From Ruminococcus sp. (GTDB lineage: Bacteria; Bacillota; Clostridia; Oscillospirales; Ruminococcaceae): a stretch of DNA of 41,474 nt. The notes beneath the pieces were generated by a model, which was given only the letters and a program-made list of their open reading frames with translations, had not been told where the DNA came from and made no database searches. This document shows, in pieces, positions 10,359 to 41,334 of the stretch. Both the position numbers and the translations under genes were made by a program. The stretch is taken from assembly GCA_017450925.1 (NCBI GenBank), contig JAFSSS010000039.1:1-41474 (forward strand), given 5' to 3'. The stretch's first letter is position 1, and each line of letters begins with the position of its first letter.

Positions 10359-10997
10359 CTATTGCAGCTTTTCGATAACGCCCTTGTCCATTTCGTGGAC
10401 AGTCTCGCAAAGCACCGAGATGTCCTCCGCCGAGTGGGAGCAGATAAGAATGGTCTTGCCCTGTTCGCGGTAGGAGAGCAGGTATTCGCGCATCTCGGCA
10501 ACGCCCTCCTTGTCAAGGCCGTTGAAGGGCTCGTCAAGGATAAGTATCTTCGGATTTTCCATTATCGCCTGCGCCAAACCGAGGCGCTGCCGCATACCGA
10601 GGCTGTACTTGCGGACGTGCCGCCTCAGATCGGGATCGAGGCCGACCTGCTTCATTGAGTTTCTAACCTCTTCCCTGCCGATCTTGTGATTCAGCCCTGC
10701 AAGCAGTTTCAGATTTTTATATCCCGAATAGTAGGGTATAAATCCCGGTGTTTCAATGATGATGCCCATATCCTTCGGGAAATCCACATCCTTTCCGACC
10801 CGCTTGCCGTCCACGGTTATCTCCCCCGCCGTGGGCTTGATAAAGCCGCAGATACACTTCATAAGCATAGTCTTGCCCGAGCCGTTGCGCCCGATAAGGC
10901 CGTGTATTTTGCCCTCCTCAAAGCTCACGTTTATGCCCTTGAGTATCTGCGTTTTGCCGAGGGTGAGATCTACGTTTTTTACTTCGATGATGTTCAT
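10359..10997 (-). CDS. ABC transporter ATP-binding protein (ABC-2 exporter type)
   Basis: This 212-residue protein has Walker A GRNGSGKT, Q-loop region near IIIETPGF, signature YSLGMRQRLGLAQAI and Walker B ILILDEPFNGLD. The GRNGSGKT and SLGMRQR forms are usual for ATPases of ABC-2 peptide or antibiotic exporters. It closely resembles the ATPase at 35506-36147. AGGAGG lies 7 bases before the ATG. Two ABC-2 permeases upstream in the same operon (12119-12991 and 13004-13879) are the likely membrane partners, separated from it by a lipoprotein gene. Confidence 0.94.
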   Translation of the reverse strand: MNIIEVKNVDLTLGKTQILKGINVSFEEGKIHGLIGRNGSGKTMLMKCICGFIKPTAGEITVDGKRVGKDVDFPKDMGIIIETPGFIPYYSGYKNLKLLAGLNHKIGREEVRNSMKQVGLDPDLRRHVRKYSLGMRQRLGLAQAIMENPKILILDEPFNGLDKEGVAEMREYLLSYREQGKTILICSHSAEDISVLCETVHEMDKGVIEKLQ

Positions 10998-11012
10998 GAT
11001 GTCTCCTCCTGT

Positions 11013-12104: not shown

Positions 12105-12118
12105 ATTTCCGTCTCCGT

Positions 12119-12991: not shown

Positions 12992-13003
12992 ATCCGCACC
13001 CCC

Positions 13004-13879: not shown

Positions 13880-13896
13880 ATTATCACCAGCTTGCA

Positions 13897-15027: not shown

Positions 15028-15034
15028 ATAATCA

Positions 15035-16192
15035 TCACCTTGCCGTATCTATGGTTATCTCTCCAGTCAAAGCATTAACTTTGACTGCTTCTCTGTGTTC
15101 TCCGTTCTCGTCCGTGACTTTATAGTAAAAGCACCATGTCGGCTCGAAATATGCAGTTTCTATCTTGCCGTAATCGGCAAGAATACGCGAATCTTCCAAG
15201 CTGTCCGTGCCGATGATAACAGGGGCGGTGATCTTGCAGCAGTATTTCAGCTCAACGGATGTGAGATTGCAGCGCATATATTCTGCCAAATCATTTTTGA
15301 GGATCTCCACAGCCCCGCTTAACGGTATCGCTTCGCTGATCTTCTCCGCGAGAGGATACTGTTCCGCAAAGGACGAACTGAAAACAAGGTAGTCGTTTTT
15401 GTCCGTGACCGTCAAGGTAAGATTGTTTAAGGAATAACCGGTCGTGACCTGATAGCCCGACCTCTGCTGAGATATCCACATGGGAGAATCTTCCTCAAGC
15501 ATTATGCCCTTGTACTTTATCCCGTACTCTATCATCGCATACCTCACTCCCTTGGAGCTTTTCAGATCGTCGATACGCAGAGGAACGATCTCAAAACCTC
15601 CGATAAACGGGAGTATCTCAGCATCAAGGCGTTTCTGCATACCGTCAAGAAGCTCCGCGACGGTACAGCTGCCGCTTTGAAGCTCAACTGTCTTTTCCGG
15701 CTCCGAAGGAAGGAACCGTCCGAGAACAGTAGAATCCGGCGTGATGTCTCCGCTTGTGCAGGACTTGGTAATATTCATCGGAAACCCGTGCAAGACTGCG
15801 GCAAAGGCATCATCCGGCAAAGATATCTGATAGATAACGCTTTTGTCCCAGTTCTTCTCCTCTCTCACGGCGGACTCGTCGAACCTTTCCCCGAAGCAGG
15901 CTTTCATCAGCTCAAGAGCCTTCTGTTTTTCCTCCGGGACCTCAGCGCCTCCCCTCCGGTCAGGAAAGCGGTACAGCCCGTCGTACTCCGGCTTTTCGAT
16001 GACATCCGGGAGCCGAAACAATTCAAAGTCCTTGCCCTGAAGTTCCTCACAGCCTTCAAAGATATCAGCAGCCGGGACAAGGTCGTCAACGTTTCCCTCC
16101 TGCGTATTGCCGCTGTTATCAGATGATGTGCAGGCGGTGAGCATCACCGCTGCCGAAAGCGCGGCCGCAAGCAGCGCTGTCGCTTTTTTCAT
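15035..16192 (-). CDS. Lipoprotein, P-x-W family member; first gene after the shared leader
   Basis: This 385-residue lipoprotein has signal MKKATALLAAALSAAVMLTAC with lipobox LTAC. It shares EELQGKDFELFRLPDVIE with its downstream neighbour and ends EPTWCFYYKV ... VNALTGEITIDTAR. The start is fixed by AAAGGAGGATCATT and by the signal peptide; the open frame extends 21 codons further upstream without a ribosome-binding site. Its leader and first codons are nearly identical to those of the gene that begins at 41441, so the two genes are recent or conserved duplicates. It probably heads the transcript that includes the ABC-2 permeases. Confidence 0.87.
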   Translation of the reverse strand: MKKATALLAAALSAAVMLTACTSSDNSGNTQEGNVDDLVPAADIFEGCEELQGKDFELFRLPDVIEKPEYDGLYRFPDRRGGAEVPEEKQKALELMKACFGERFDESAVREEKNWDKSVIYQISLPDDAFAAVLHGFPMNITKSCTSGDITPDSTVLGRFLPSEPEKTVELQSGSCTVAELLDGMQKRLDAEILPFIGGFEIVPLRIDDLKSSKGVRYAMIEYGIKYKGIMLEEDSPMWISQQRSGYQVTTGYSLNNLTLTVTDKNDYLVFSSSFAEQYPLAEKISEAIPLSGAVEILKNDLAEYMRCNLTSVELKYCCKITAPVIIGTDSLEDSRILADYGKIETAYFEPTWCFYYKVTDENGEHREAVKVNALTGEITIDTAR

Positions 16193-16298
16193 AATGATCC
16201 TCCTTTTGCAAAACGTGAGATCTATCTCTCTGTCAGCAATAACAATCAAAAGCACCCTTTTGTGATATCATATTTTCAACTTTGTACAGATGCACAAA
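16193..16298 (-). promoter_or_regulatory. Conserved leader with operator-like palindrome
   Basis: On the minus strand this stretch is about 90% identical to 41335-41440 on the plus strand. It contains the near-perfect dyad TTGTGCATCTGTACAA (16282-16297), then GTTGAAAAT, ATATCACAAAAGGG, ATTGTTATTGCT, the near-palindrome GAGATAGATCTC, and GCAAAAGGAGGAT. Such conservation of non-coding DNA next to two paralogous genes suggests a shared regulator. I see no clean housekeeping promoter in it, which fits an alternative sigma factor, but that is inference. Confidence 0.65.
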
Positions 16299-16302
16299 TC
16301 AA

Positions 16303-16337
16303 GCCCCGCATTGTTGTGCAATTTAACAATGCGGGGC
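16303..16337. terminator. 13-bp perfect hairpin
   Basis: Perfect stem GCCCCGCATTGTT / AACAATGCGGGGC with a 9-base loop stands between the lipoprotein genes at 16363 and 15035-16192. It is 25 bases after the stop of the upstream gene. No T-run follows on the minus strand, so it may be a weak terminator, a transcript-stabilising stem or part of the downstream leader. Confidence 0.55.
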
Positions 16338-16362
16338 GGTATAGATTTGATCTGTCCTGTTT

Positions 16363-17433
16363 CTACAGCGCCGCATCGATCGTCCCGTCGATACAATCGA
16401 CCGTAAAACAGTTCATACAGTTTGCGAAAAAGTCCTCCGAAAAAGTGATGAAATACCATTTCGGCCTGCATTTTATATTTGGGAAATCCACGCCCCCGGA
16501 GCAATCCGCCCGCGGCTCGTACATCAATACCACTTTTTCAAAGTTATAGTGCGCAGCATCCCCAAGGTTTTCTTCAAGCAGATCGCAGGCGCCCTTGAAC
16601 GAAATGATCTTCTCTAACCGGTCGGCTTTGACTGCCTTATATGAGTTTTCGGGATGATAGAGAACAGCCTTTACATCATTGTTGAAATAGCAATACCCCT
16701 GCAAAGGATACAGTTCGTTGCTTTCATCCAGATATGACTCTATAGGGTGCTGAACTGTATATGGCAGTACAGCCACATTTTTGTACGCCTTTTCTATTTG
16801 TACACCGTAGCCCTCGCTGTCCTCTCCGTTGTATTTGTTTGCTTCATAAACAATGCTGTCAAGCTCATCACCGAGAATTTCTTTTGACTTCTCATTGTAT
16901 TCTTCGGCAGTGCTCATCGCCTTTTTCATCTTTTCATCAAGAGATGTCAGCGTCTTTTTGTTAAGCGTGATTATCTCATCACTTTTTATCAGATCGGAAT
17001 TCAACGGAGTGACAGCTTCGGCCTTGAGAGAATTGTTGATCATATATGCAGCTGATAGTTTTGCGGTTTTAATTTTCATTGAAACTATCTCATCTGTATT
17101 TCCGAAGATCGGCTCAAGCTCGGTTCCCTTTTTGGTTTTCCATTCTTCATCGCAGTTCTTATTGATTATCTCAAGCTCAAGATCAAATACGCCTTCGGGT
17201 GTTTCAGCCGTTAATGTTTCTTTATCGGGCAGACCTACCTTTTTGTATTCGGCTGAATACGCTGCATCAATATCAGAATAAGCCTTGCTGCTTTCAGCCA
17301 AAAGTGACTCTGCATTTGCCACGCTTAATGTGTTTACCGAACCGTTTGCATTGCTTGTATCAGCCGGACTGTCAGAGCATGATGCAAGCAAAGCAGCCGC
17401 CATTACCGCTAATATCATCCTGTGCTTTTTCAT
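16363..17433 (-). CDS. Lipoprotein, P-x-W family member (divergent)
   Basis: This 356-residue lipoprotein has signal MKKHRMILAVMAAALLASCSD with lipobox LASC. A Lys/Glu-rich helical middle follows (about residues 40-200). A late helix KIISFKGACDLLEENLGDA and the ending RPKWYFITFSEDF ... VDCIDGTIDAAL match the family layout. AAAGGAG lies 7 bases before ATG 17433. It is separated from the next gene by a hairpin and the conserved leader, so it may be a separate transcription unit. Function unknown. Confidence 0.83.
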   Translation of the reverse strand: MKKHRMILAVMAAALLASCSDSPADTSNANGSVNTLSVANAESLLAESSKAYSDIDAAYSAEYKKVGLPDKETLTAETPEGVFDLELEIINKNCDEEWKTKKGTELEPIFGNTDEIVSMKIKTAKLSAAYMINNSLKAEAVTPLNSDLIKSDEIITLNKKTLTSLDEKMKKAMSTAEEYNEKSKEILGDELDSIVYEANKYNGEDSEGYGVQIEKAYKNVAVLPYTVQHPIESYLDESNELYPLQGYCYFNNDVKAVLYHPENSYKAVKADRLEKIISFKGACDLLEENLGDAAHYNFEKVVLMYEPRADCSGGVDFPNIKCRPKWYFITFSEDFFANCMNCFTVDCIDGTIDAAL

Positions 17434-17658: not shown

Positions 17659-17744
17659 GTGCTTTTGGAAATGAGATACACTTATGAATTATGATGAAAA
17701 AAGCTGCGGCCCCTGCGGCTGCAGCAGTCCCGACAGCAGCTATA

Positions 17745-17890
17745 TAGTTGATAATTGATAATGAACAGCTGATAATACAGGAGCGCCTTTGGCGCGGGGG
17801 CGAATGTTCCATACGCCCCCGCGAATGTTCCATACGCTCCCGCACCAAAGGCGCTCCTTTCATTATCTGTTCATTATCAACTATCAACTA
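17745..17890. repeat. Nested palindromic repeat, copy C
   Basis: The left arm TAGTTGATAATTGATAATGA through CAGGAGCGCCTTTGGCGCGGG pairs with a right arm reading CGCTCCCGCACCAAAGGCGC then TCCTTTCATTATCTGTTC and ATTATCAACTATCAACTA. The loop holds two direct copies of a 21-bp unit, GCGAATGTTCCATACGCYCCC. The right end overlaps the 3' end of the esterase gene and supplies its stop codon (17877-17879). Confidence 0.85.
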
Positions 17891-18815
17891 AAAACTCCGC
17901 GTTCAGCGCCTTGAAATACTCCTGCCTTACCGCCCTTGCCTCCGGGACGAACTCCATTGCCCCCCAGCAGTGCATCATGCCCTCGCCGATGTGGACGTTC
18001 AGCCTTACGCCGCATTCCCTGCAGTGAGCCTTAAGATCGTCAAGATAGGCATACATGACCTCGTGAGTGCCGTAGAAAACATCGATCTCCGGAAAGCCCG
18101 AAATGTCACAGAGCAGAGGGCTTAGCAGATAGGCCTCGCCCCCCTTGGCAAGCACCGGGGCTATCCTGTCGAAGAAGGCCGGGGGTATCATCACATCGTG
18201 CTTTTTGAGCCTTTCCATTTTTGCCCTCTGACTGTCGCTCGGCGGCACCTGCATCCCCGGCGACTGAAGCACCAGCTTCGCAGGCATGGGGATCTCCGGG
18301 TACTTGTTCTTGATGTAAAGGCACAGCGACATCGCCTGTCCGCCGCCGGAGGAGGTGCCGAAGAACCGCACATTTTCCGGCTCGTGCCTTGTGAGGATAT
18401 GCCGATAGACCGCCAATGTGCTTTCGAGGGTCTCGGTCAGCCTGTGGTCGGGAGCCATGGGATATATCGGGAACCACACCTCTGCATCACAGGCTTTTGC
18501 TATCTGTCCGCAGAGAACAAGGTCGCCGGGGTCGGGGGGCAGGATATACCCGCCGCCAAAGAGATACAGCACCGCCTTTTTCGGCCTCGTCCCCTTGACC
18601 CTCACGGCATAGACCGCCACACCCCCAAGCTCCTTTCTGATAAGCTCGAGGCCGTCCTTTTTAAGCCTTTTATACGGCACCTTCAGGGGCTTTTTCTGCT
18701 TCTTTGAATAGTCGGCCAGCAGCCTCTCCCACTGCTCGCCCTGCTTGTCAAGCATTTTGTTCACGCCGATAAGCGAGAACAATTTTTCAAGCATACGATA
18801 TCTGAAACTCGGCAT
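17877..18815 (-). CDS. Alpha/beta hydrolase, HSL/acetyl-esterase family
   Basis: This 312-residue cytoplasmic esterase has an oxyanion loop FGGGY (residues 86-90) in place of the usual HGGG, nucleophile Ser155 in GTSSGGG, the SPLL segment near 232, and catalytic His282 in GMMHCW. The acidic member is less clear: the usual Asp position reads GTHEV, so Glu252 may replace it. Substrates would be short acyl esters, possibly of hemicellulose side chains or drugs (inference). The start follows GTGAGG. The gene follows a methyltransferase by 10 bases. The last residues, VDS, and the stop come from the palindromic repeat. Confidence 0.87.
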   Translation of the reverse strand: MPSFRYRMLEKLFSLIGVNKMLDKQGEQWERLLADYSKKQKKPLKVPYKRLKKDGLELIRKELGGVAVYAVRVKGTRPKKAVLYLFGGGYILPPDPGDLVLCGQIAKACDAEVWFPIYPMAPDHRLTETLESTLAVYRHILTRHEPENVRFFGTSSGGGQAMSLCLYIKNKYPEIPMPAKLVLQSPGMQVPPSDSQRAKMERLKKHDVMIPPAFFDRIAPVLAKGGEAYLLSPLLCDISGFPEIDVFYGTHEVMYAYLDDLKAHCRECGVRLNVHIGEGMMHCWGAMEFVPEARAVRQEYFKALNAEFLVDS

Positions 18816-21989: not shown

Positions 21990-24900
21990 TTACATTGCGT
22001 TTACCATTCTCTGCAGAGTGGTAATATCCTTCATACCGATCGAGCCGTCCTGGTCAACGTCAGCCGCCGCTTCGACTATGGGGTTGTTCCAGCCGTTGAC
22101 GTATCTCTGCAGCTCGGTGATATCCTTCATGCCGATGCTTCCGTCGCCGTTCACATCGCCGAGGAGGACGCCTGTGTCAAGCGCCTCAAACTCGATATTG
22201 TTTGCCTTGGCGTATTTCTCTGCCGCCGAGCCTCTGTAGCCGCTGATCTTGAAGCTGTCAACTGTATCAACTTCATCGGTGTTGTAATTCGTGTATTTGC
22301 CCAGTGCGCCGTCGCCGATATTCTTAACGCTTCTCGGAACTGTCAGCTCCTTGAGCGCGCCGCAGCCGTAAAATGCTTTGTCGCCGATAGAGGTGACACC
22401 GTCGGGGATGTTTACGCTTTCCAGTGCAGTGCATCTGAAGAAGGTGCGATTGTTTATCTCCTTAATGCCGGTGCCAAGCTTGGCGCTTGTCAAGGCTGTG
22501 CAGTATTCAAACGCATCGGGTCCGATATAGGTCACTGAATCCGGCACCTCGATGCTCTTCAGCTTATAGCACTCGGAGAATGCGTCGCTGTCGATGCTTT
22601 CAAGGCCGTTGGGAAGCTTTACGGCTTCAATGGTGCTGTTGCCTTCAAAGGTGCTGCTGCAAAGCTCTGTTACAGGCATACCCTTGATCTTTGCGGGAAC
22701 GGTGACCTCCTTGTCATTTCCGATGTAGCCGGTGATGCTCACCTTGCCGTCATTGACTTCATAGACGAAGTCACCATCAACATTCTCGTCGAGCAGAACG
22801 ATCTCAAGACCGTTTGCTTTTGCATAACGGTATGCGCCGGTGTTATAGTAGCAGCAGACTGTAAATCCGGGCACATTCTCGTTATAGAGATAGCCGTCCT
22901 TCTCGGTTTCCACAAAGCCGATAGCCAAGCTGTCGATACTGCTGTAGCCGCTGTTGAAGCTTATTCTGTCAAGCTTCGGGCAGTCATAGAACGCTCTGTC
23001 ATTGATGATCATCGAGCCCTCCTTGGGCAGGTTCACCTCTTTAAGAGATGCACAGCCCTCAAAGGCGCTGCTGCCGATAACCCCAACGCCGGCAGGAAGG
23101 GTAACGCTCTCGACAGTTGTGTTGCCTTCAAATGCGCTGCTGCCGATATTATTTACCGGGTGGCCGTCAAGCTCTGCGGGTATCGCAAGAGCCTTGCCGC
23201 TGCCGGTATAGCCGATGATAGCTGCATAGCCTGTATTTTCATTTACCGAATAGATATAATCTCCGCTGACCTCTGCATCCAGCAAAACAAAGTTCACTCC
23301 TGTATAGAGAGCATATTCGTGAGCCGAGGAGCCGGCGTAGCAGAAGAGCGTAAAGCCCTCGGTCTTTTCGTAGGTATCGGAGCTGTCATCCTCGCTGCCC
23401 GTGGACTTGAAGCCAAAGGTGTGATCGTACTTGTAGATGCTCTTGTCCCTGTCAAGTGTGACCTCCTTGAGGCTCGGGCAGTCGAAGAATGCCTTGTCCT
23501 CAATGCTGATGTATGTTCTCTCCGGGAGAGTAATGCTTGAAAGCTTGCTGCAGCCCATAAATGCGCCGTAATCTATAGTCCTTACGGTCTCGGGGACAGT
23601 AACTGCGGTGACAGACGTATTGTTTTCAAAGGCTCTGACACCGATGCTGTGTACCTTATAGCCGTCAAGCTCCGCAGGGATAGCAATGCTGCCGCCCTTG
23701 CCGGTATAGCTGACGATATTAGCCTCGTAGCTCGTTACAGGCTTATCATCGCCTGTTTCGGGATCGTACTCCCAATCGGTGGTTTCGTCAAGGATGTATT
23801 CGTAATCTCCGCTCTTCTTAAGGTCAAGCACCTCGTGGTCGAAGCCGTTTTCCTTTGCATAGCTGTGGCCGTTTGTGCCGTAATAGCAATAGATCTTGAA
23901 GCCCTCGACCTTCCTGTAGCTATAGTCCTCCCAGTCATCGCCGTCCTCGCGAGGCAGGTAGCCGAAAGCACATTCGCCGTTCCAGATATCTGCATATTTG
24001 GGAATGGTTATCTCCTTGAGGCTGGGGCAGTTGAAGAAGGCCTCGCTGCCAATGTAAAGGCTGTAGGTGCTGTCCTCCGGCAGAGCAACTGACGAAAGAT
24101 TCTTGCAGCCTGCAAAGGCAGAAGATTCGATGTTGTATATCGAATCGGGGACAGTGACTCCTGTGATATCGGCATTATTTGCAAACGCCTCGCTGCCGAT
24201 CGCAGTGACCTTAACGCCGTCCAGCTCGGTGGGAAGGGTCAATTTGCCGCCCTTGCCGGTATAGCCGACGATCTTAGCGCTGTCGTTTTCGTCAAGCACA
24301 TACAGATAATCGCCGCTCTGCTTGAGGTCAAGTACCTCGCAGTCAAACTTGTTTTTCAAAGCATACTTATGACCTGCGGTGCCAAAATAGCAGAGGATCT
24401 TGAAACCGTCAACCTTCTTGTATTCGCTGCTCCATTCACCGTCGCCGTCATTATTGGGCAAATAGCCGAAGGCATCGTAGTAGGCGCTGACCCAGTTGTT
24501 CCTGTTTATTGTCACCTGCTTAAGGCTCGGGCAGTCGAAGAATGCCTCGTCATAAATATCAGCACCGTTGTCCGGGAGAGTAACGGACGCAAGCTTCGGG
24601 CAGTTTTTGAATGCACTGATGCCGATCTCGTCGATAGTGTCGGGGAAGGTAACTCCCGTGATATCGGGATCGCCCATAAAGGCCTTGTTGCCGATTTTCT
24701 CTGTCCTGTATCCGTCAAGCTCTGCGGGGATAGTGATGTTCCCGCCCTTGCCGGTATAGTCTATGATCTTTGCATAAGACTCGGTCACAAGCTTCTCGAC
24801 GCCGTAGCTGTCGAACTCCCAGGTAGTGCTCTCTTCAACTATGTAGGTATAATCTCCGCACTGCTTTGCGCCGATTATCTCATAGTCAAATCCGTTGTAG

Positions 24901-27900
24901 TCTGCATACTCAAGACCGTCGCTGTCGAAGTAGCACTTGATCTTAAAGCCGTCAAGCTTGACCTCGTCATCTTCTTTGCCGGAGCTTACATAGCCAAAGG
25001 CGTACCAATTCTTATCGAGCCAGTTGTGCTTATTAATGGTGACCTCTTTGAGTGCGGGGCAGTTAAAGAAGGCTCTGTCTCCAATATTGAGATCATTGTC
25101 CGGCAGAGTGACGCTCGAAAGCTTCGGGCAGTTTGCAAAGGCCTCATACTCGATCTCCTTTAAGGTGTCCGTGAACGCAGCGCTTGTGAGCTTTTCGCTG
25201 CCCTTGAAGGTCTCGGCTGCAACAATGCGCACATTATAGTCATCAAGCGCTGCGGGGATCGTTACCGCTCCGCCGTTGCCGTAATACTCGACTATTACCG
25301 CATAGCTCTTGTCGCTGTCATCATCATCGTCCCAATTGTCGTTCTCTTTAAGGATGTAGCCGAAGTCCCCGCTCTTATACAGATCAAGGACGTTGAAGTC
25401 AAAGCCGTTTTCCTTCGCATATTCATGCGCGCTGGTTTTGTAATAGCAGTTGATCTTAAAGCCGTTTATCTTCTCGCAGTCGTCAAAACTGCCCTGATAT
25501 CCGAATGCATAGCCCTCATTGTCCAGCATGATGTTCCTCGGGAGAGTTACCTCCTTGAGGCTCGGGCAGTTTGCAAATGCATAGGGCTCCACGCTTGTAA
25601 CGCAGTCATCGTCAAAGACAACGCTTGAAAGCTTCTCACAGCCGTTAAAGGCACTGCTGCGGACATAGCCCACCGTTTCCGGGATAACGACGCCGGTGAT
25701 ATCGGCATTGTCCATAAAGGCCTCGTACCCGATATAGCGGACGGTATAGCCGTCAAGCTTCTCGGGGATGCTTACCTTTCCGCCTGCGCCGGTATAGCCG
25801 ATGATATTTGCATAGTCGCTGGTGACACGCTTTTCGCGGTCAGTCTCCTCGTCATAGACCCAGCTGGTTTCCTGCTCAACAACGTAAGCAAAGCCGTCGG
25901 TCTCCTTGATGTCGATGACCTCGTATTCAAAACCGTTTTCCTTGGCATAATCATGACCCTCGGTCATGTAGTAGCAGTAGATCTTGAAGTCATCCAGCTT
26001 TTCGCTGTAGGTGTAGGAATAGCCCTCCTCCTCCACCGTTTTATCAACATAGCCGAATGCATTTGAGACGGTGGCTTTCTTGGGTATGGTGACCTCCTTC
26101 AGCTTCGGACAGTCATAGAACGCACAGCTTTGTATTTCAAGCGTCTTATCAGTGCCGCACAGGAACTTGACGCTTGCAAGGTTGGCGCAGTTTCTGAAGG
26201 CATTTTCATTGATAAATCTTACCGTCTCCGGGAAGGTCACGCCGGTGATATCGGCATTGTTCGAGAAGACCTCTTGGGGGACAGTCACAACCTCCAGTCC
26301 GTCAAGCTGTGCGGGCAGGGTGATATTGCCGCCCTTGCCGGTGTATCCAACTATCCGGGCAACGTTGGTCTCAACATACTTTTCCTCGCCGTATTCATCA
26401 TACACCCACTCGCCGTAGGTCTGGGGAACGTAGCTGTAGTCTCCGCTCTTTTTAAGGTCGATCACCTTGTAATCAAAGTCGTTTTCCTTGGCGTAATAAT
26501 AGGCGCTGCTTTCAAAATAGCAGTTGATCTTAAAGTCAGAGATCTTTGCTGTGTTTTGACCGCCCCACTCGTCGATCTCTGCGGTATAGCCGAAGGCCTC
26601 GCCGTAATTGTAGATATCGACACTTCTCGGAACAGTGATCTCCTTCAGACCGGGACAGTTGAAGAACGCCCGATACTCGATCTGCGCGCCGGAATCCTCC
26701 GGCAGAGTAACGGATGCAAGCTTTCCGCAGTCTTTAAAGGCGGAGTTACCGATCCTTGTGATGCTCTTGGGGAAGGTCACGCCGGTGATGTCGTTGTTGT
26801 TGGCGAAGGCCTCGTTGCCTATCTCGGTGACCGTATAGCCGTCGATCTCCGCAGGAATGGCCATATTCCCGCCCTTGCCGGAGTAGCCGGTGATCCTGGC
26901 GTCATGCCTTTCGACCAGAACATCGGTTCCCTTTTCTTCGTCATATTCCCAATAGCTTGTATCCACAAGCACATACTCGTATTCGCCGCTCTGCTTCAGA
27001 TCAAGGACTTCATAGTCAAAATTGTTTTCCCTTGCATAATCATATCCGCTGGTGCCGTGATAGCAATAGATCTTGAAGCCCTCGATCGGTGCGGGTTCGG
27101 TAACGGTCTCGCCCCAATAATCATCATAGCGCTCGGTCTTTACATATCCGAACTGATAATCGTTCCATAATCTGTTCAGTCTGGGGATAGTGACCTCCTT
27201 AAGGCTCGGACAGTTATAGAAGGCCGAACTTTCAATGCTGAGGTCAGTATTCGGCAGTGTAACGCTTGAAAGCTTTGCGCAGTCGGCAAAGGCGCTGTAG
27301 CTGATCTGTGTTATGCTTTCCGGGATCGTAACGCCTGTGATATTGTTGTTCCCTTGGAAGGCTGAATCTCTTATGACATTCACACTGATGCCGTCCAGCT
27401 CGGAGGGGACAGCAATATCTCCGCCCTTGCCGGAATAGGCCATTATCTCCGCATTATACTTGAAGACCTTTTTCTCATCCCCGGTCTCCTCGTCATACTC
27501 CCATTCGGAATATCTGTTCTTGTAATATGTATAATCCCCGCTGGTGACGATGTTCGGATCCTTGGCCTCGGTATATTTCCCCTTCCAGTCCCAGTTGAAG
27601 GAAACGCTGTCGCCAAGCTGGTATTTGTCGGGAGATATCAGCGAAAGCTCAAGGCCGGCATTGCCGATATTGTAGTCGTTGGGAGTGATGCTCCTTTCAA
27701 GCAGGTCATAGGCATTGCCCTTGATAACGGCATGACCGTCAGCATCAAAGCTGGCATAGTCAGCCGCCCACTTCCAGTCTCTGTTTCCCATTACGAAAAA
27801 GCAGATCTGGATATCCTCTGGAGAAATATCGCTGTCGGTGATAAGATCGGATATATCCGCTGTTATCTCGTAATCGCCGAACCTGTCTGTAAAATTGGAG

Positions 27901-28523
27901 AAGCTGTAGCCGCTTCCCATAAGGTTCTTCTGATAGTTGGCGGAATAGCCCTCTCCCCAAGGGTTGTTAACTACCTCAAGGGTGATGTCTCTTGAATCCG
28001 GGTCGCCGTATTCGAGAGAGTAATCAAAATTACAGGAAAGAGTATCGTCCGGGCCGACCGCGTCATCGGTATAGGACACCTGTATGCCGGCAGAGCCTAT
28101 CGCCGTGTCATTTTCCCCGAAGCTCCTGTCAACAAGCTCACCTGCATTCACCTTGAATTCTGCGTGGCCGTTTTCATCGAAGGTACCGCTCGTTGTCTGC
28201 CAGTTCCATGAATCGTTTCCCATAATGAAAAACGCGGCATAGAGCTTTGTCGGATCGATCTCACAGGACGAGCTGATATCCGTGATATCGACTGTCACTG
28301 TAAATTCGCCGTATGTGTCGATAAAGTCCTGATAGCTGTCGCCGTAGTTAAAAATGCTTTGATTATGGGTAAAGGAATAGCCGTTCCCGTCCCAGTTCGT
28401 CTCTGCATTCAGCGACAGATGAAGATCATCGCCCACGTGACTGAAAGCCGATGCGGGCAGCAGCGTTGACATTGTCATAGCCACAGACGTTGCAGCCGCA
28501 AGTATGCGTTTGAGTTTAACCAC
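21990..28523 (-). CDS. Giant secreted LRR_5 (BspA-like) protein with type I dockerin
   Basis: This 2177-residue secreted protein has signal peptide VKLKRILAAATSVAM to an ASA cleavage site (about residue 26). Two related beta-rich domains follow (about 35-175 and 185-325), sharing GYSF, FFxMGNxxWxW and a DxxGHA turn. Ten modules of about 170 residues come next (340-2110). Each opens SGDYxY, carries a TGKGG..IPAELDGY strand, then LRR_5 units such as ITGVTFPxSI and YNCPSLKEVTIP, and ends with a CYYxTxxxxYAKENxFDYEVLD unit. The last 57 residues form a dockerin with duplicated calcium loops DVNGDGSIGMKDIT and DVDQDGSIGMKDIT. GTG 28523 is preferred, 7 bases after GGGGGT; ATG 28538 has no ribosome-binding site. 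Role: probably docked on a cellulosome-like scaffold or cell-surface cohesin, binding a polymer or host ligand (inference). Confidence 0.93.
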   Translation of the reverse strand: MVKLKRILAAATSVAMTMSTLLPASAFSHVGDDLHLSLNAETNWDGNGYSFTHNQSIFNYGDSYQDFIDTYGEFTVTVDITDISSSCEIDPTKLYAAFFIMGNDSWNWQTTSGTFDENGHAEFKVNAGELVDRSFGENDTAIGSAGIQVSYTDDAVGPDDTLSCNFDYSLEYGDPDSRDITLEVVNNPWGEGYSANYQKNLMGSGYSFSNFTDRFGDYEITADISDLITDSDISPEDIQICFFVMGNRDWKWAADYASFDADGHAVIKGNAYDLLERSITPNDYNIGNAGLELSLISPDKYQLGDSVSFNWDWKGKYTEAKDPNIVTSGDYTYYKNRYSEWEYDEETGDEKKVFKYNAEIMAYSGKGGDIAVPSELDGISVNVIRDSAFQGNNNITGVTIPESITQISYSAFADCAKLSSVTLPNTDLSIESSAFYNCPSLKEVTIPRLNRLWNDYQFGYVKTERYDDYWGETVTEPAPIEGFKIYCYHGTSGYDYARENNFDYEVLDLKQSGEYEYVLVDTSYWEYDEEKGTDVLVERHDARITGYSGKGGNMAIPAEIDGYTVTEIGNEAFANNNDITGVTFPKSITRIGNSAFKDCGKLASVTLPEDSGAQIEYRAFFNCPGLKEITVPRSVDIYNYGEAFGYTAEIDEWGGQNTAKISDFKINCYFESSAYYYAKENDFDYKVIDLKKSGDYSYVPQTYGEWVYDEYGEEKYVETNVARIVGYTGKGGNITLPAQLDGLEVVTVPQEVFSNNADITGVTFPETVRFINENAFRNCANLASVKFLCGTDKTLEIQSCAFYDCPKLKEVTIPKKATVSNAFGYVDKTVEEEGYSYTYSEKLDDFKIYCYYMTEGHDYAKENGFEYEVIDIKETDGFAYVVEQETSWVYDEETDREKRVTSDYANIIGYTGAGGKVSIPEKLDGYTVRYIGYEAFMDNADITGVVIPETVGYVRSSAFNGCEKLSSVVFDDDCVTSVEPYAFANCPSLKEVTLPRNIMLDNEGYAFGYQGSFDDCEKINGFKINCYYKTSAHEYAKENGFDFNVLDLYKSGDFGYILKENDNWDDDDDSDKSYAVIVEYYGNGGAVTIPAALDDYNVRIVAAETFKGSEKLTSAAFTDTLKEIEYEAFANCPKLSSVTLPDNDLNIGDRAFFNCPALKEVTINKHNWLDKNWYAFGYVSSGKEDDEVKLDGFKIKCYFDSDGLEYADYNGFDYEIIGAKQCGDYTYIVEESTTWEFDSYGVEKLVTESYAKIIDYTGKGGNITIPAELDGYRTEKIGNKAFMGDPDITGVTFPDTIDEIGISAFKNCPKLASVTLPDNGADIYDEAFFDCPSLKQVTINRNNWVSAYYDAFGYLPNNDGDGEWSSEYKKVDGFKILCYFGTAGHKYALKNKFDCEVLDLKQSGDYLYVLDENDSAKIVGYTGKGGKLTLPTELDGVKVTAIGSEAFANNADITGVTVPDSIYNIESSAFAGCKNLSSVALPEDSTYSLYIGSEAFFNCPSLKEITIPKYADIWNGECAFGYLPREDGDDWEDYSYRKVEGFKIYCYYGTNGHSYAKENGFDHEVLDLKKSGDYEYILDETTDWEYDPETGDDKPVTSYEANIVSYTGKGGSIAIPAELDGYKVHSIGVRAFENNTSVTAVTVPETVRTIDYGAFMGCSKLSSITLPERTYISIEDKAFFDCPSLKEVTLDRDKSIYKYDHTFGFKSTGSEDDSSDTYEKTEGFTLFCYAGSSAHEYALYTGVNFVLLDAEVSGDYIYSVNENTGYAAIIGYTGSGKALAIPAELDGHPVNNIGSSAFEGNTTVESVTLPAGVGVIGSSAFEGCASLKEVNLPKEGSMIINDRAFYDCPKLDRISFNSGYSSIDSLAIGFVETEKDGYLYNENVPGFTVCCYYNTGAYRYAKANGLEIVLLDENVDGDFVYEVNDGKVSITGYIGNDKEVTVPAKIKGMPVTELCSSTFEGNSTIEAVKLPNGLESIDSDAFSECYKLKSIEVPDSVTYIGPDAFEYCTALTSAKLGTGIKEINNRTFFRCTALESVNIPDGVTSIGDKAFYGCGALKELTVPRSVKNIGDGALGKYTNYNTDEVDTVDSFKISGYRGSAAEKYAKANNIEFEALDTGVLLGDVNGDGSIGMKDITELQRYVNGWNNPIVEAAADVDQDGSIGMKDITTLQRMVNAM

Positions 28524-28556
28524 TTGACCAACCCCCATTTAAATATACTGCTTAAA

Positions 28557-28957: not shown

Positions 28958-30496
28958 TTATTGCTGTCTTTTCTTTATTACAAGGAAATATACCGCAAAT
29001 CCGCCAATAACCAAAACGATCAGCACAGATAATAGTATTATTATTACGATCGTACCGCTTGATGATTTTACATTATCTTCATTTTCACTGATTACAGATT
29101 TCTCTTGATCAGAAGACTCCTCTCTTGAGCTTTCCTCGGATTGTATAAGACTGCTCTCACTATCAGTTTTATCTTTGCTGCTTTCTGACGATGCTGCTGA
29201 TTCTGATGTCGTTTCTGATGCCGTTTCTGCTATCCGTGAGTCTTCATATACTTCTTCAGCAGTCGTTTCTGCTTCTGCATAAGCGTTATGATCCTCATTA
29301 TCTGCCACACTCGAAGAATCATAATAATCATAATCTTGATCTATTGTATCGCCATTTATAAGTTCGTAATCCAAACCGTTGATCTTGGCAAATGAAAGCG
29401 CTTTTGAGTAAGAACGGCAGCCGATCTTTGTTGTCACAGCATTAGCACTGTCACCGAATACTCTATCAATATCTGCATCTTTGCTGTTGACTATCAGTTC
29501 TTCAAGTGAACTGCATAGTGAAAAACAGCTTTCTCCAAGTTCTGTAACTCTTTGAGGCAACTCTACTTTAACTAATCCGGAAGAGGAGAAGCCGAAATCT
29601 CCTATTGAGGACAGCTTCTGAGGGAGATCTATATATTCAAGAGAACTACAGCCATTGAAAGCATAAGCCTTTATTTCCTCAACGCCGGCGGGAAGAACAA
29701 CGTTTTCTAACTTATTGCAGCCTGCAAACAGATTCTTTTCTATTGTATCGATCTTTTCGGGAATAATTACATTTTTTATTTTTAGGCATGAATGGAAAGT
29801 TCCTGCACCAATATACTCTGTATTTGAGGGAAATTGAACTTTTTCTTCTTCAATGCTTTCCTTTGTTCCTATGGTTGTCAGTTCCAGGCCGACAAAGGAT
29901 AGACTACCTATCTCTTTTAGGGAAGCAGGTAATGTGACTTTTTTTAGTGATGTATATCCGTATACGAAAGAAACGGTTTCCCCATATTCTTTATAATCAT
30001 AGATAAATGGAAGATGATCATCGTAAGAATAACCATTAAGCTCCACCCAATCATTATAGCTAAAAATATTATCGGGAATACTACCGGCCTTAACAGGCTC
30101 AAAGCATGAAAACATTCCGACATATTCTATACCCTCTGAAATAGTTACTTCTTTTATTCCACTGTAATCCAATGCCTGCCCAATATAATAACGTATATAA
30201 TTTCCAAATACAGCTTCAACCTTTTTGCCGTCTATTTTGCTTGGGAAAACTACATTTTTATCATGTCCAAAATAACCGATTATTGCAACATTACCGTCTC
30301 TTAATTCCATAAAAATGAAATCATTATAATCCTTGACTACTTCGGGATTCTTCCTAAAAGTATTGTCAACATAGGAAAAGACCCGATCGACCTCTGCTGC
30401 ATGAGCAGATAGCGCACTGCCAAACATAATAGCAATAATCGTAATTAAGAATGTCACTGTAAAACATATCATCCTGTGCTTGATTTGAATGATCAT
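28958..30496 (-). CDS. Membrane-anchored LRR_5 (BspA-like) surface protein
   Basis: This 512-residue protein has an N-terminal signal (about residues 8-33, ending SAHAA) and LRR_5 units from about 60 to 370, e.g. VTLPASLKEIGSLSF, VIIPEKIDTIEKNLF and VVLPAGVEEIKAYAFNGCSS. A Ser/Glu/Asp-rich stalk spans about 390-480, and a single C-terminal helix (about 482-505) is followed by KKRQQ. It would be displayed on the cell surface with the stalk crossing the wall. AAGGAGG lies 7 bases before ATG. It is clearly more AT-rich than its neighbours and is paired with a divergent XRE regulator through overlapping promoters, which suggests that the regulator controls it. Confidence 0.9.
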   Translation of the reverse strand: MIIQIKHRMICFTVTFLITIIAIMFGSALSAHAAEVDRVFSYVDNTFRKNPEVVKDYNDFIFMELRDGNVAIIGYFGHDKNVVFPSKIDGKKVEAVFGNYIRYYIGQALDYSGIKEVTISEGIEYVGMFSCFEPVKAGSIPDNIFSYNDWVELNGYSYDDHLPFIYDYKEYGETVSFVYGYTSLKKVTLPASLKEIGSLSFVGLELTTIGTKESIEEEKVQFPSNTEYIGAGTFHSCLKIKNVIIPEKIDTIEKNLFAGCNKLENVVLPAGVEEIKAYAFNGCSSLEYIDLPQKLSSIGDFGFSSSGLVKVELPQRVTELGESCFSLCSSLEELIVNSKDADIDRVFGDSANAVTTKIGCRSYSKALSFAKINGLDYELINGDTIDQDYDYYDSSSVADNEDHNAYAEAETTAEEVYEDSRIAETASETTSESAASSESSKDKTDSESSLIQSEESSREESSDQEKSVISENEDNVKSSSGTIVIIILLSVLIVLVIGGFAVYFLVIKKRQQ

Positions 30497-35505: not shown

Positions 35506-36147
35506 ATGAACAGGATAGACCTTGAAAACGTCAGCAAGACGATACGCAGGAGCGAGGTGCTGAAAAACATCTCTCTGCATTTCGAGAGCGGTAGGATATA
35601 CGGCTTCATCGGGCGCAACGGCTCGGGAAAGACCATGCTGTTCCGCACCGTGGCGGGGCTGATAAAGCCCACGGCGGGCTGCGTAAAATACAACGGCCAG
35701 ACCCTCGGGGCTGATATCGACATCATCCCCCGGCTGGGGCTGGTGATCGAAAACGTGGGTCTGTACCCCGAATTTTCGGGGCTTGTAAATCTAAGGATGC
35801 TGGCCAAGATAAACTCACTTGTCGGCGAACAGGAGATAAGAGAGGCTGTCTCCCGCGTGGGGCTCGACCCCGATGACAGGCGCACGGTGCGGAAGTACTC
35901 CCTCGGGATGAAGCAGCGCATAGTCCTTGCACAGGCGATAATGGAAAAGCCGGATGTGCTTATCCTCGACGAGCCCACCAACGCCCTTGACGAGGACGGT
36001 GTCGAACAGATAAGAGGCATCATCCGTGAGGAAAGGGAGCGGGGCGCACTTGTGCTGATAGCCAGCCACAACAAGGAGGATATATCCTCTCTTTGCGACA
36101 GGATATATCTGATGAAGTCGGGAGAGGTAACGGAGGCGGGAGAATGA
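35506..36147 (+). CDS. ABC transporter ATP-binding protein (ABC-2 exporter type)
   Basis: This 213-residue ATPase has Walker A GRNGSGKT, signature YSLGMKQRIVLAQAI, Walker B VLILDEPTNALDEDG and an H-loop in IASHNKED. It is closely similar to the ATPase of the minus-strand lipoprotein block (10359-10997). TAGGAGG lies 6 bases before ATG. It is in one operon with two permeases and a following exported protein. Confidence 0.95.
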   Translation: MNRIDLENVSKTIRRSEVLKNISLHFESGRIYGFIGRNGSGKTMLFRTVAGLIKPTAGCVKYNGQTLGADIDIIPRLGLVIENVGLYPEFSGLVNLRMLAKINSLVGEQEIREAVSRVGLDPDDRRTVRKYSLGMKQRIVLAQAIMEKPDVLILDEPTNALDEDGVEQIRGIIREERERGALVLIASHNKEDISSLCDRIYLMKSGEVTEAGE

Positions 36148-36878
36148 AGGCTTTCATCCTTTTGCAGGCGCTTATCATCGCCGCAGCTGTCACAGCCGGA
36201 GCTGTCATCAGATCAAAAGCGCCCGATGCGCCAGCTGATGCCGTTAAGCATTTTGAGGACGTCCGCAGTATAAGCTTTGACGTGGTCACCGTCACGGAAA
36301 TGTCCGGCAGGAAGAACTTCAGCGCCTTTGAGGGCGGCGGCTGGTTCTACGATGAAAGCTATTCCCCCTGCATTTTTGTCTGCCGCGCAGAGGACAGTCT
36401 CACCTGCGGCTGGTATGACTTCAGCCAGCGTGTCACGGTCGAGAAAAGGATAAGCGGCAGCTGTCCCGCCGTGGGCGAAGCAATTGATCTGACGGTCAAC
36501 GGCGGCATTCACCGCCACCCGAAGAATATGTATTTCTACAACGAATATCTGCCCGAGGATATCCCCGACAGCAGAGTGCTGACTGTTCTCGACCTCGAGG
36601 GGCTGAACTTCATGAAGCCCGGCCACAGCTACCTTGTGGCCTGTCAGACGACAGTCATCGGCTCCTCAAGATATTACGGTACGCCCTACGGCGCCCCCTG
36701 CTGGCTCGACCTTGCAGACAACAGCGACAAAATACTCACCGTCCCCGCTTATGAAGCAGACTACGCCGAATATGCCGACAACGAGTTTTTCTGCTCCAGC
36801 CGCAAGGAGCTGGATGATCTGATCGCTCTCAAGAAAAGGCTCTTCGACAGATACGGCCTTGATGCGCCGACGCTGTAA
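36144..36878 (+). CDS. Exported or membrane-anchored protein of the ABC operon, unknown function
   Basis: This 244-residue protein has an N-terminal hydrophobic anchor (about residues 3-22) with no lipobox cysteine, followed by an extracytoplasmic domain with several Cys (CIFVCRAEDSLTCGWYDF) and aromatic residues. The start overlaps the ATPase stop as ATGA, with GGAGGCGGGAGA upstream. I do not recognise the family. By position it parallels the lipoproteins that accompany the other ABC systems of this window. Confidence 0.78.
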   Translation: MKAFILLQALIIAAAVTAGAVIRSKAPDAPADAVKHFEDVRSISFDVVTVTEMSGRKNFSAFEGGGWFYDESYSPCIFVCRAEDSLTCGWYDFSQRVTVEKRISGSCPAVGEAIDLTVNGGIHRHPKNMYFYNEYLPEDIPDSRVLTVLDLEGLNFMKPGHSYLVACQTTVIGSSRYYGTPYGAPCWLDLADNSDKILTVPAYEADYAEYADNEFFCSSRKELDDLIALKKRLFDRYGLDAPTL

Positions 36879-38619: not shown

Positions 38620-38667
38620 CGCAAAAACGCTCCTGCTTTTTCCGCGCAAAAACGCTCCTGCTTTTTC
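38620..38667. repeat. Tandem duplication of a 23-bp unit
   Basis: CGCAAAAACGCTCCTGCTTT plus TTC occurs twice with a period of 25 bases, directly upstream of the promoter at 38674-38702. The promoter spacer contains GCAGGAG, the complement of the CTCCTGC core of the repeat. The 427-base gap 38407-38833 otherwise holds the two promoters and no gene. Confidence 0.8.
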
Positions 38668-38833: not shown

Positions 38834-39442
38834 ATGAATATGAACAAAATGATATCCATAGCAGGTTCGGCGATAGTAACGGTGACAGTATTCCTGTTTG
38901 CAGTTTTTCTTATCGTCAATTTTTCCGCGGGCAGCTATTTTGTCTGCCTTATCCTGCCGGCAGGCTTTATCATGATGACGGCAGGCCTGCACAATGAATG
39001 CGAAAGCGACCGCAGGGTCGCTGCAAATATCGGTCTGATACTTGCGGCTGTGTATGGCACATTGATCATGCTTGTCTATTTTTCACAGCTGACGACGGTA
39101 AAAAACGAACAGCTGAACGAACAGGCCGCACAGCTTTTGGAATTTAACAGGTTCGGGCTCATCTTCAACTACGACCTGCTCGGCTACGGCGTAATGGCGC
39201 TTTCCACCTTCTTCACAGGGCTTTCGATAAAGCCCCGGTGCAAAACGGACAAGTGGCTCAAAGCGCTGATGATGATACACGGAGTGTTCTACTTCAGCTG
39301 CACGTTCATGCCGATAACGGGAATGTTCGCAAGGATGTCCTCCGGCGGCGACGGCATCGGCGGAAGGCTCGCACTTGTCGTATGGTGTGTGTATTTTCTG
39401 CCCGTCGGGATACTGTCATATCTTCATTTCAAAAAAGGATAG
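38834..39442 (+). CDS. Six-helix integral membrane protein of unknown function
   Basis: This 202-residue protein has about six hydrophobic helices (near residues 7-27, 31-50, 62-82, 110-130, 145-165 and 178-198) joined by short charged loops. I do not recognise the family. GGAGGAAGAGTAA precedes ATG. It is monocistronic, and its stop codon TAG forms part of the end of a 248-bp inverted repeat shared with the convergent sigma-factor gene. Confidence 0.75.
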   Translation: MNMNKMISIAGSAIVTVTVFLFAVFLIVNFSAGSYFVCLILPAGFIMMTAGLHNECESDRRVAANIGLILAAVYGTLIMLVYFSQLTTVKNEQLNEQAAQLLEFNRFGLIFNYDLLGYGVMALSTFFTGLSIKPRCKTDKWLKALMMIHGVFYFSCTFMPITGMFARMSSGGDGIGGRLALVVWCVYFLPVGILSYLHFKKG

Positions 39443-39686
39443 ATCCCAATTTCGATGCAGCTGCAAAAGACAGTTTATAGTTAATAGTTGATAATGAAGG
39501 AGTGCCCTTGGCGCAATTATGCCCATATCGGGCGCAGTAGTTTGAGGAGAACAGAGGCATTGCAGTTCTATTCTCGCTGCCGCGCCCGATATGGGCATTC
39601 GTGCGCCAAGGGCGCTCCTTCATTATCAACTATCAACTGTCAATTTAATAAGCTGTTTTTGCAGCTGCATCGAAATCGGGATCTAT
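39439..39686. repeat. Nested palindromic repeat, copy F: 248-bp inverted repeat spanning two convergent stop codons
   Basis: The outermost arms ATAGATCCCAATTTCGATGC and (complement of the right side) ATAGATCCCGATTTCGATGC differ at one base. Inner arms follow: GATAATGAAGGAGTGCCC with CTTGGCGC, and the inner hairpin GCCCATATCGGGCGC / GCGCCCGATATGGGC, around a 35-base centre. Almost the entire region is self-complementary. Both TAG stop codons (39440-39442 on plus, 39685-39683 on minus) lie in the end repeats. It may act as a bidirectional transcript end. Confidence 0.92.
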
Positions 39687-40966
39687 GCATTCTCGGCGGA
39701 AATGTCATCTCTGAAGCTCTTTGTGCTTGACTGAAAGACCTTGTCCTCGATGTATTCGTCGTCCTTGTCAGCTCTGAATTCGATGCACAGCTGTCTGCTG
39801 TCCCTCGCAGGGATGTACAGCCTGTAGATCGGCTCGTTGTTTTCCGAAAGGCAGTAGAGTTTCACCTCGGTATCAGCTGCCGGGAAATACAGTGTCTCGC
39901 AGCAGCGGGCGGTCTCTGCCGCATCGTCAGCAGAGGAAACGCTCCAGTCCTCCATATATCCGAGCAGATACTCCGGCAGATCAATGTCATAAGCCTCGCC
40001 GCTGCGGATGATGTGTTCTTCACTGTTGACCGGCTGATAATCCACCGTGTATTCAAAGCCCTTGTCCTTCAGCCTTGCGACTGCCGCACTTGCCTCTGAT
40101 ATCAGACCGTCATTCCGCACCGGGACTGCCTGCACGGTCTCTTCCTCAACAGACTGCTGCTCCTCGGGACGGCTGTCTCCGATATTTTCAACGATCTCCG
40201 GCAGGTCTTTGTTCGTATCGGCTGCCCTGCTCAAAGCAGCAGGTACTCCCGCCGCTATCGCTGCCGCCGTGCAGCCCCCGATAAACCTCACTGCGAACCC
40301 CGTCTTGAATGCAGCCCTGCCTGCACCGGCAGCAGCGCTCCCGCCCGAGGCAGCATTCACCACCGCTCCGATAGGGACAAGGCAGAATACCGAGCCGCCC
40401 CTGCAAAGCTTTTTCAGCTTAGCTGTCAGCTTCTTCCGTGCTTGAAACAGCTTCTGCTTGGCAGCGTTTTCGTTAAGCCCCAAAGCCTTGCCCACATCCG
40501 CGACACTCAACTCCTCAAAATAATACAGCATAACTGCCGAGCGCATATCCGGCTTAAGACTGTTGATAGCCGCTTTCAGCTGCTCTGTTGTCTCCGCGTT
40601 TTCAAGATAGTCCGAGGGCAGCCTTACAGGCTCGTTGAGTGAATTGTTCTCTATCGTGCTTTCCAGCTCCTCCTCGCTGTCAAACCTTGCAATGCCCGAT
40701 TCTGAATTATTGTGCTGCAGGCATTTGTTGTATGCGATAGAATAGAGCCACGAGGCAAAGGCTCTGCTGCATTTCAGCTCGTTCAGCTTTTCAAAGGCTG
40801 TCAGGAACGTGTCAGAAACGATATCCTCCACCGCAGCAGCAGAATAAACATTCTTTGATACAAAGAACCATATCCTGCCCCGGTATTCGATATACAGCTT
40901 TTCAATTGCAGCCTTGTCCCCGTTCTTAGCCGCCGGAACAGTCCTTTCAAGGTCAATACTATTCAT
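39683..40966 (-). CDS. ECF-type RNA polymerase sigma factor with membrane and extracytoplasmic extension
   Basis: This 427-residue protein has a sigma-70 region 2 (about residues 20-90: FFVSKNVYSAAAVEDIVSDT, FASWLYSIAYNKC) and region 4 (about 133-188: MRSAVMLYYFEELSVADVG, then NENAAKQKLFQARKKL). Ordinary ECF factors end here. This one continues with a Gly/Ala-rich hydrophobic stretch (191-248, likely helix 224-246), an acidic linker, and a soluble domain to 427, presumably outside the membrane. AAAGGAG lies 7 bases before ATG 40966; the frame is open 30 codons earlier without support. It would sense an envelope state and control nearby lipoprotein genes (inference). Confidence 0.9.
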   Translation of the reverse strand: MNSIDLERTVPAAKNGDKAAIEKLYIEYRGRIWFFVSKNVYSAAAVEDIVSDTFLTAFEKLNELKCSRAFASWLYSIAYNKCLQHNNSESGIARFDSEEELESTIENNSLNEPVRLPSDYLENAETTEQLKAAINSLKPDMRSAVMLYYFEELSVADVGKALGLNENAAKQKLFQARKKLTAKLKKLCRGGSVFCLVPIGAVVNAASGGSAAAGAGRAAFKTGFAVRFIGGCTAAAIAAGVPAALSRAADTNKDLPEIVENIGDSRPEEQQSVEEETVQAVPVRNDGLISEASAAVARLKDKGFEYTVDYQPVNSEEHIIRSGEAYDIDLPEYLLGYMEDWSVSSADDAAETARCCETLYFPAADTEVKLYCLSENNEPIYRLYIPARDSRQLCIEFRADKDDEYIEDKVFQSSTKSFRDDISAENA

Positions 40967-41090
40967 CGTTATTCTCCTTTCCGAAAAAAATAAGGATCCT
41001 GCTGTCCAGCCGTCCGACCGCAGCCTCGTCCGGCTGACCCGCGCTGTACATTTCATACAGCACCAGCTTTATCAGTTCATCAAGCTTCAT
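40959..41090 (-). CDS. Possible 43-residue leader protein overlapping the sigma-factor start
   Basis: This short frame begins MKLDELIKLVLYEMYSAGQP, continues with an acidic/basic helix and ends GKENNDE. Its last codons contain the ribosome-binding site of the sigma gene, and the two frames overlap by 8 bases, which would couple their translation. Its own ribosome-binding site (GGGATGTGAG) is weak. It has clear helical character but no family I recognise. Possible roles are a partner or anti-sigma peptide, or a translation leader. Confidence 0.45.
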   Translation of the reverse strand: MKLDELIKLVLYEMYSAGQPDEAAVGRLDSRILIFFGKENNDE

Positions 41091-41334
41091 CTGCTCACAT
41101 CCCGTTTTGTTCTCTCATAGATCAAGATAAAAAAATCAGCAAAAGGTTATAAGCTTTTGAGATATTTTTATCCAAGCAGATCGCAAACAGCAGGTGATAC
41201 AATATTAGCACAGATCATATCCAAAAGCAAGTGTTCACTGTTTTATAGGCGGCATACCGCCCAAAACGCCCCCGCAGGAACGGTCGCATCCGACTGCCCT
41301 GCCCTGTCAAATTGCACAACGCCCGGTGCCCTAA

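Follow-up and report, generated by a model that had tools for sequence, protein, structure and literature searches.

Can one polypeptide combine an ECF sigma factor with a membrane anchor and a sensor, and how could such a sigma factor be silenced when its chain carries no anti-sigma domain? The question is raised by a gene located at 39683-40966 in the stretch of Ruminococcus sp. DNA analyzed here (41,474 nucleotides, hereinafter the window). A first-pass annotation of the window had proposed that sigma activity, membrane anchor and sensor were all held in this single chain.

Domain architecture of the sigma factor

The features of the gene, all on the minus strand, are the following.

39683..40966, minus: ECF sigma factor with a membrane segment and a C-terminal domain, 427 amino acids plus stop (ORF list, translation, Pfam, NCBIfam)
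40712..40897, minus: sigma region 2, residues 24-85 (Pfam PF04542)
40427..40585, minus: sigma region 4, residues 128-180 (Pfam PF08281)
40352..40396, minus: conserved GSVFCLVPIGAVVNA segment after region 4, residues 191-205
40229..40285, minus: predicted transmembrane segment with an A-G-V-P motif, residues 228-246 (hydropathy, alignment)
40160..40180, minus: juxtamembrane GDSRPEE, residues 263-269, counterpart of GDYRPE in relatives
39686..40114, minus: C-terminal, probably extracytoplasmic domain, residues 285-427, of no known family

The coordinates of the gene were correct as first annotated, and the plus strand of 39683-40966 contains stops in frame 1. Both sigma regions reported at first pass are borne out by Pfam, with matches above the curated cut-offs to Sigma70_r2 (3.1e-08, residues 24-85) and Sigma70_r4_2 (1.8e-13, residues 128-180), the combination by which a protein is assigned here to the ECF sigma factors; the NCBIfam profile sigma70-ECF (TIGR02937) gives 86 bits against 42.9. 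The distal part, in which no family had been recognized after residue 250, also lacks one in profile searches: Pfam assigns no family to residues 256-427 at E 0.05, and a sequence search of the PDB with residues 250-427 returns a single match (E 0.049) that was taken as noise, as was the single PDB match (0.54) of a profile built from six members of the clade described below. Identity between the C-terminal domain (residues 285-427) and its counterparts in the loci L079-L083 is about 25-28%.

An anti-sigma domain was detected by Pfam neither in the full chain nor in the two visible neighbors of the gene, which match no Pfam family, in agreement with the original remark that no anti-sigma gene is seen beside it. 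Because the contig ends at 41474, about 500 nt upstream of the sigma gene, neighbors located further upstream are out of sight. Known cytoplasmic ECF extensions, such as SnoaL_2 or TPR, were considered and ruled out, Pfam finding neither. Elsewhere in the window, several genes at 8080-17433 (minus strand) encode lipoprotein-like N-termini, some with nearly identical starts, and another lipoprotein-like start is found at the contig end, from 41434 onward (plus strand). A very long ORF (21990-28538, minus strand, 2182 amino acids) has a signal-peptide-like start.

One conserved module with interchangeable C-termini

The same fusion was sought in related genomes and proved to be a recurrent layout. 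The genome that contains the window encodes two close paralogs of 687 and 1067 amino acids with the same layout and 40-46% identity to the window protein. Within the genus, relatives are present in 10 of 16 genomes, the own genome included, with 27 sigma matches at 1e-20; a family-level draw yields matches at 1e-15 in 8 of 100 genomes, again including the own one. A scan of named genomes identified 61 loci, the nearest of which belong to uncultured Ruminococcus or Clostridia, several of them from rumen samples. Nearly all these relatives come from metagenome assemblies. After near-copies were removed on the basis of residues 41-180, the pooled set of 93 rows was reduced to 78, with 61 distinct proteins of at least 240 amino acids. 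Given two sigma domains within one open frame, two paralogs and 61 distinct relatives, the layout is not due to chance; a sequencing artefact is ruled out by the two paralogs from the own genome together with the many relatives. A single scan of viral contigs produced 22 pattern matches, none of which is a relative.

The C-termini are highly diverse. A Pfam search with 29 of them identifies FtsX permease in four (L027, L065, L068, L070), BspA-type leucine-rich repeats (LRR_5/BspA) in three (L029, L033, L077), Big_14 Ig-like domains in three (L066 above the cut-off, L012 and L063 below it) and a CAP domain in one (L032); L031 shows a sub-threshold match to DUF6438, 15 C-termini, including that of the window protein, have no match, and two more have chance-like matches only. 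In one of the paralogs from the own genome (L013, C79), the outer part resembles an extracellular solute-binding protein (E 6.4e-05); a short ECF-like gene (184 amino acids) lies directly downstream of it. Judged by these domain assignments, the family is one conserved module joined to widely differing C-termini, among which are domains of the type expected outside the cell.

Predicted membrane segment, orientation and juxtamembrane motifs

The Kyte-Doolittle profile of the window protein reaches 1.56 around residue 193 and 1.61 around residue 228 at its two peaks, the latter being the lowest value among the 61 distinct relatives measured (range 1.61 to 2.94). Averaged over the 61 distinct proteins, the 25 residues ahead of the most hydrophobic segment carry a net charge of +1.6 and the 25 that follow it one of -2.1, with the qualification that in the FtsX fusions the most hydrophobic segment is the first helix of the permease. 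This asymmetry fits a predicted orientation with the sigma domain inside and the sensor outside. A strongly positive stretch comes after the segment in these fusions, with the first helix of the permease next, an arrangement that appears to be at odds with a plain single crossing ahead of that helix.

Among 14 sequences from the genus, P198 and A201 in the linker, as well as A238 and G240 in the segment, are invariant, and P242 is nearly so. In the wider set, a G-x-P motif occurs in or beside the segment in 27 of the 61 distinct proteins and is absent from 34, and the motif G-[DEN]-x-P that follows the segment is found in 19 and is absent as written from 42. The G-x-P motif suits a predicted cut within the membrane by a site-2 protease; two M50 proteins above the cut-off are encoded in the own genome.

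A conserved microprotein encoded next to the sigma factor

Three further features lie ahead of the sigma gene.

40959..41090, minus: small ORF encoding a microprotein of 43 amino acids, overlapping the sigma start by 8 nt (ORF list, profile search)
40974..40982, minus: Shine-Dalgarno-like GGAAAGGAG for the sigma gene, within the small ORF (read from the sequence)
41121..41149, minus: putative ECF-like promoter TAACC-N16-(T)ATCTTGAT, also written TAACC-N16-TATCTTGAT, ahead of the small ORF, with the same layout before many relatives

An initial profile built from 13 small ORFs detected this microprotein family beside most of the close relatives of the sigma gene. Of the 37 close named loci (L079-L115), 31 have it, five of them with weak matches (E 0.013-0.044), and none of the 23 loci that are distant or short (L116-L138) does. 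A genus search with 33 rows, most of them from the same named loci, was run over 16 genomes of the genus at E 0.01 or better and gave 22 matches, of which 21 are located directly upstream and one directly downstream of a sigma gene of the family, with none elsewhere. Of the 27 sigma matches in the genus, 22 have the microprotein; it is absent from all three in genome G101, from the single one in G108 and from one in G110. In a draw at the level of the order, one genome of 197, the own one, contains the microprotein; the rows of the same family listed there represent other genera. At L029 (3916-3993, minus strand), the microprotein gene follows the sigma gene instead of preceding it, and the tail of the protein is basic, not acidic.

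Differences between the microprotein genes, summed over seven related pairs, amount to 42, 33 and 100 at codon positions 1, 2 and 3, respectively, a bias which indicates that the ORF is translated as a protein; the pair formed by the window and L081, which was left out of the sum, shows 17, 15 and 27. The microproteins also share a family-wide sequence motif. A search of Pfam and NCBIfam with 33 of them identifies no family, with scattered single matches only. The microprotein showed no similarity to zinc-binding anti-sigma domains: hhalign against ten zf-HC2 proteins gives a probability of 0.4, with the controls equal or higher. On this evidence, the 43-residue ORF is a conserved, protein-coding partner of the sigma gene and represents an unnamed family. 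Since all 22 matches in the genus adjoin a sigma gene of the family, a role as a mere leader is unlikely. The first-pass annotation had singled out this ORF as the only candidate partner; this reading is revised in that the ORF is conserved and coding, and in that clade members are tied to an FtsX/ABC transporter.

Putative promoter and predicted autoregulation

Promoters of ECF type combine an AAC-type -35 with a GTC-type -10 element. Of 47 upstream regions, 21 contain the pattern AACC-N14/17-(S)TCWW in the nearest 150 nt, compared with 1.8 on average and 7 at most over 300 shuffles, a contrast that is inflated because the pattern was chosen after some of the sequences had been viewed and because the rows are related. 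A stricter, [GT]TC version (pattern A), which misses the promoter of the window, has no match in the window; the looser pattern B occurs there twice (30030, plus strand, and 41149, minus strand) against a shuffled mean of 0.1. The match at 30030 lies on the strand opposite to the ORF 28958-30496. The presence of an ECF-like pattern before many operons of the family makes autoregulation of the sigma operon likely.

In the own genome, the stringent pattern identifies the operon's own promoter and one site inside a DegV-type reading frame; given the location of this other match and a control count that is also 1, no regulon was found in this genome, which is 66.6% complete. In a search for shared leaders, the conserved word CTATGAGAG was found once in the window. 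Rfam has no match in the window, a generic sigma-70 promoter scan yields 1 site versus 1.6 expected, and a terminator scan yields 4 terminator-like sites versus 2.1.

Association with FtsX-type ABC transporters

A quick tree of 62 rows places the window protein in a seven-member clade with full support (SH-aLRT 100). Five of these members (L080-L084) have a gene for an FtsX-type ABC permease next to the sigma gene. In L081 and L083, the permease follows the sigma gene after a gap of 8 nt, with the ATPase next; in L082, the permease precedes the sigma gene and the ATPase overlaps it on the other side; in L084, the permease is directly after the sigma gene; and in L080, the adjoining permease is a shortened frame. 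Elsewhere in the tree, the sigma factor and an FtsX-type ABC permease are fused into one protein of about 900 amino acids. There are seven distinct fusions in eleven rows (L027, L065, L068, L070, L098, L105 and L109); the label of a further row, L104, as a fusion was assigned by the present authors, its contig stopping inside the sigma domain. In the three cases examined in this respect (L027, L065, L070), the end of the fusion gene is overlapped by a gene for an ATPase.

Homology between the adjacent and the fused permeases extends over most of the sequence, with E values from 5e-27 to 1e-09 and an identity of about 20%. That the permease is adjacent in one clade and fused in another is good evidence that sigma factor and permease form a working pair. 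Given the conserved microprotein and the tie of the clade to an FtsX/ABC transporter, the single chain is probably not the whole system. The first-pass reading is supported as far as the layout is concerned, which is recurrent and has a probable anchor and a probably extracytoplasmic part, and is probably incomplete as a description of the system. A permease of the L081 type was not found in the own genome (66.6% complete). Additional genes for ABC ATPases and FtsX-type permeases are located in the window at 545-4616 and 35506-36878; at the threshold of the tblastn search, they do not resemble the L081 type.

Proposed mechanism and alternative explanations

The explanation that we consider the best, and which as a whole has about an even chance of being right, is that of a membrane-tethered ECF sigma factor with interchangeable sensors that is released by proteolysis, regulated by the microprotein and autoregulated. 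The module would consist of the microprotein, sigma regions 2 and 4, the conserved linker and one G-x-P membrane helix, joined to exchangeable sensors, with the sigma domain in the cytoplasm and the C-terminal domain outside. In the clade of the window protein, the sensor probably works with the FtsX-type ABC permease and its ATPase, which might sense or export an envelope-active compound. A signal would lead to a cut outside the membrane and then to one within the G-x-P helix, and the freed sigma factor would join RNA polymerase to transcribe the operon that encodes it, using TAACC-N15/17-(G)TCWW promoters. The microprotein would be a dedicated partner of the sigma domain that most likely holds it off until release; put more broadly, being made together with the sigma factor, it may either hold or help it. 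A bolder proposal, to which we attach less confidence, is that Ruminococcus-type bacteria possess a new signaling design, in which a sigma factor is part of, or attached to, an FtsX-type ABC transporter and is checked by a microprotein of about 40 residues, such that the transporter would report directly to RNA polymerase without a kinase, a response regulator or a classical anti-sigma factor, the same module being re-used with many outer sensors.

Release could be dispensable if the sigma factor were never cut out and worked at the membrane, with either a change in its outer domain or contact with the transporter serving as the switch. The FtsX fusions, which place the sigma domain on a multi-spanning permease where contact could suffice, are consistent with such a scheme, and so is the lack of G-x-P in about half of the family. 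It is nevertheless rather unlikely, because an anchor would hamper the sigma factor both in leaving the promoter with the polymerase and in being released from it, and because IutY, a studied relative in the sense of an outer fusion, is cut, according to the accounts of it in PMC8999054 and PMC7593790. Alternatively, the hydrophobic stretch might not be inserted at all, so that the C-terminal domain would be an internal regulatory domain. The weak hydrophobicity of the window protein (1.61) and the problematic charges in the FtsX fusions point in this direction; the family-wide charge asymmetry and the outside-type C-terminal domains argue against it and make it improbable. As for the microprotein, its ORF runs into the start of the sigma gene in most loci and contains the ribosome-binding site of that gene, as would be expected of a leader that serves translational coupling only and has no function as a protein. 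We give little credence to this possibility in view of the codon-position bias, the family-wide motif and the location of the L029 microprotein gene after the sigma gene.

A separate issue is whether the copy in the window is intact, given a repeat at the end of the gene:

39434..39691: palindromic repeat of 258 nt, nearly perfect, one arm of which holds the sigma stop codon (repeat searches)

This repeat is dispersed in the own genome (80 matches, about 40 places by eye), and further pieces of it are scattered over the window (for instance, near 7750-7920, 17740-17900 and 19600); at 38620-38667, a 23-nt sequence occurs twice as an exact direct repeat, the copies being 25 nt apart. Insertion of the repeat could have removed the distal sensor and parted the gene from its permease, leaving a decaying remnant. 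Such a history would account for the stop codon within the repeat arm and for the greater length, by 50-153 residues, of five clade members (477, 548, 553, 578 and 580 amino acids); it also agrees with the search for a remnant of the distal sensor, which found none above noise within the window, and with the own genome (66.6% complete), in which no L081-type permease was detected. On the other side, the sixth member, the sister L084, is shorter still (313 amino acids) and yet has its permease directly after it; another copy of the repeat lies just past the end of the full-length paralog L012, and the repeat therefore occurs at the ends of intact genes too; the open frame, the promoter and the microprotein are all intact; and mis-assembly at the repeat is another possible source of the shortened end. 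Decay appears rather unlikely, and is compatible with the main reading of the family as tethered sigma factors that are released by proteolysis. Lacking the transporter and a part of the sensor present in most of the clade, the window copy may be an orphan or a cut-down copy.

Comparison with known systems

The closest parallels in layout are the ECF52, ECF53 and ECF48 groups of Actinobacteria (e.g., SCO4117). In the accounts given by PMC8999054, PMC5826349 and PMC10766802, these proteins combine an ECF sigma factor, a membrane helix and a long outer part with binding domains, contain a zf-HC2 zinc finger between the sigma domain and the membrane, and are described as exclusive to Actinobacteria; activation by cutting has been proposed, and positive autoregulation has been suggested for SCO4117. 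The family analyzed here is similar in that the sigma factor is followed by a membrane segment, predicted from hydropathy and charge, and a long, probably outer part. Unlike ECF52 and ECF53, the window protein contains no zinc-finger anti-sigma domain detectable by Pfam (CxxC occurs within residues 181-260 in 1 of 75 rows) and no carbohydrate-binding or hydrolase family in residues 256-427 (Pfam), and its host is Ruminococcus sp., a member of the Clostridia. The separate microprotein and the FtsX links set the family apart from all three groups.

IutY of Pseudomonas putida, which needs a TonB receptor, likewise has sigma and membrane part in one chain; its fused anti-sigma factor is FecR-like, and no such family is found in the window protein (Pfam, full chain, E 10). 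The sigma factor and membrane-spanning regulator of IutY are described as released by Prc and RseP (PMC8999054; PMC7593790). ECF52/53 and IutY carry an anti-sigma domain within the chain, and the window protein does not; a similar way of working seems likely, but by the zinc-finger feature the protein does not belong to ECF52/53. SigI/RsgI of Clostridium thermocellum comprise, in the account of PMC10766802, many paralogs with interchangeable outer sensors. There, the sigma factor and the membrane sensor are separate proteins, whereas in the present family they form one chain.

In Bce-type modules, an FtsX-type ABC transporter is paired with a sensor kinase. The pairing with a transporter is alike, but in the present family it is a sigma factor that does the signaling, in some cases as a fusion with the permease. 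SigO-RsoA of Bacillus subtilis exemplifies a small protein that is encoded with a sigma factor as its partner; the microprotein is about half that size.

The family raises two testable questions, namely, how a sigma factor is silenced without an anti-sigma domain in its chain and whether RNA polymerase can receive a signal directly from a transporter, and its exchangeable sensors could serve for building biosensors. A search of open-licence papers found no description of a membrane sigma family in Clostridia, of an FtsX-sigma fusion or of this microprotein. Membrane sigma factors with sensors in the same chain are known mainly from Actinobacteria and from one Pseudomonas protein; to these, the present family adds a gut and rumen lineage, many swappable sensors, a predicted microprotein partner that is unnamed in the profile libraries, and direct fusions of a sigma factor to a transporter.
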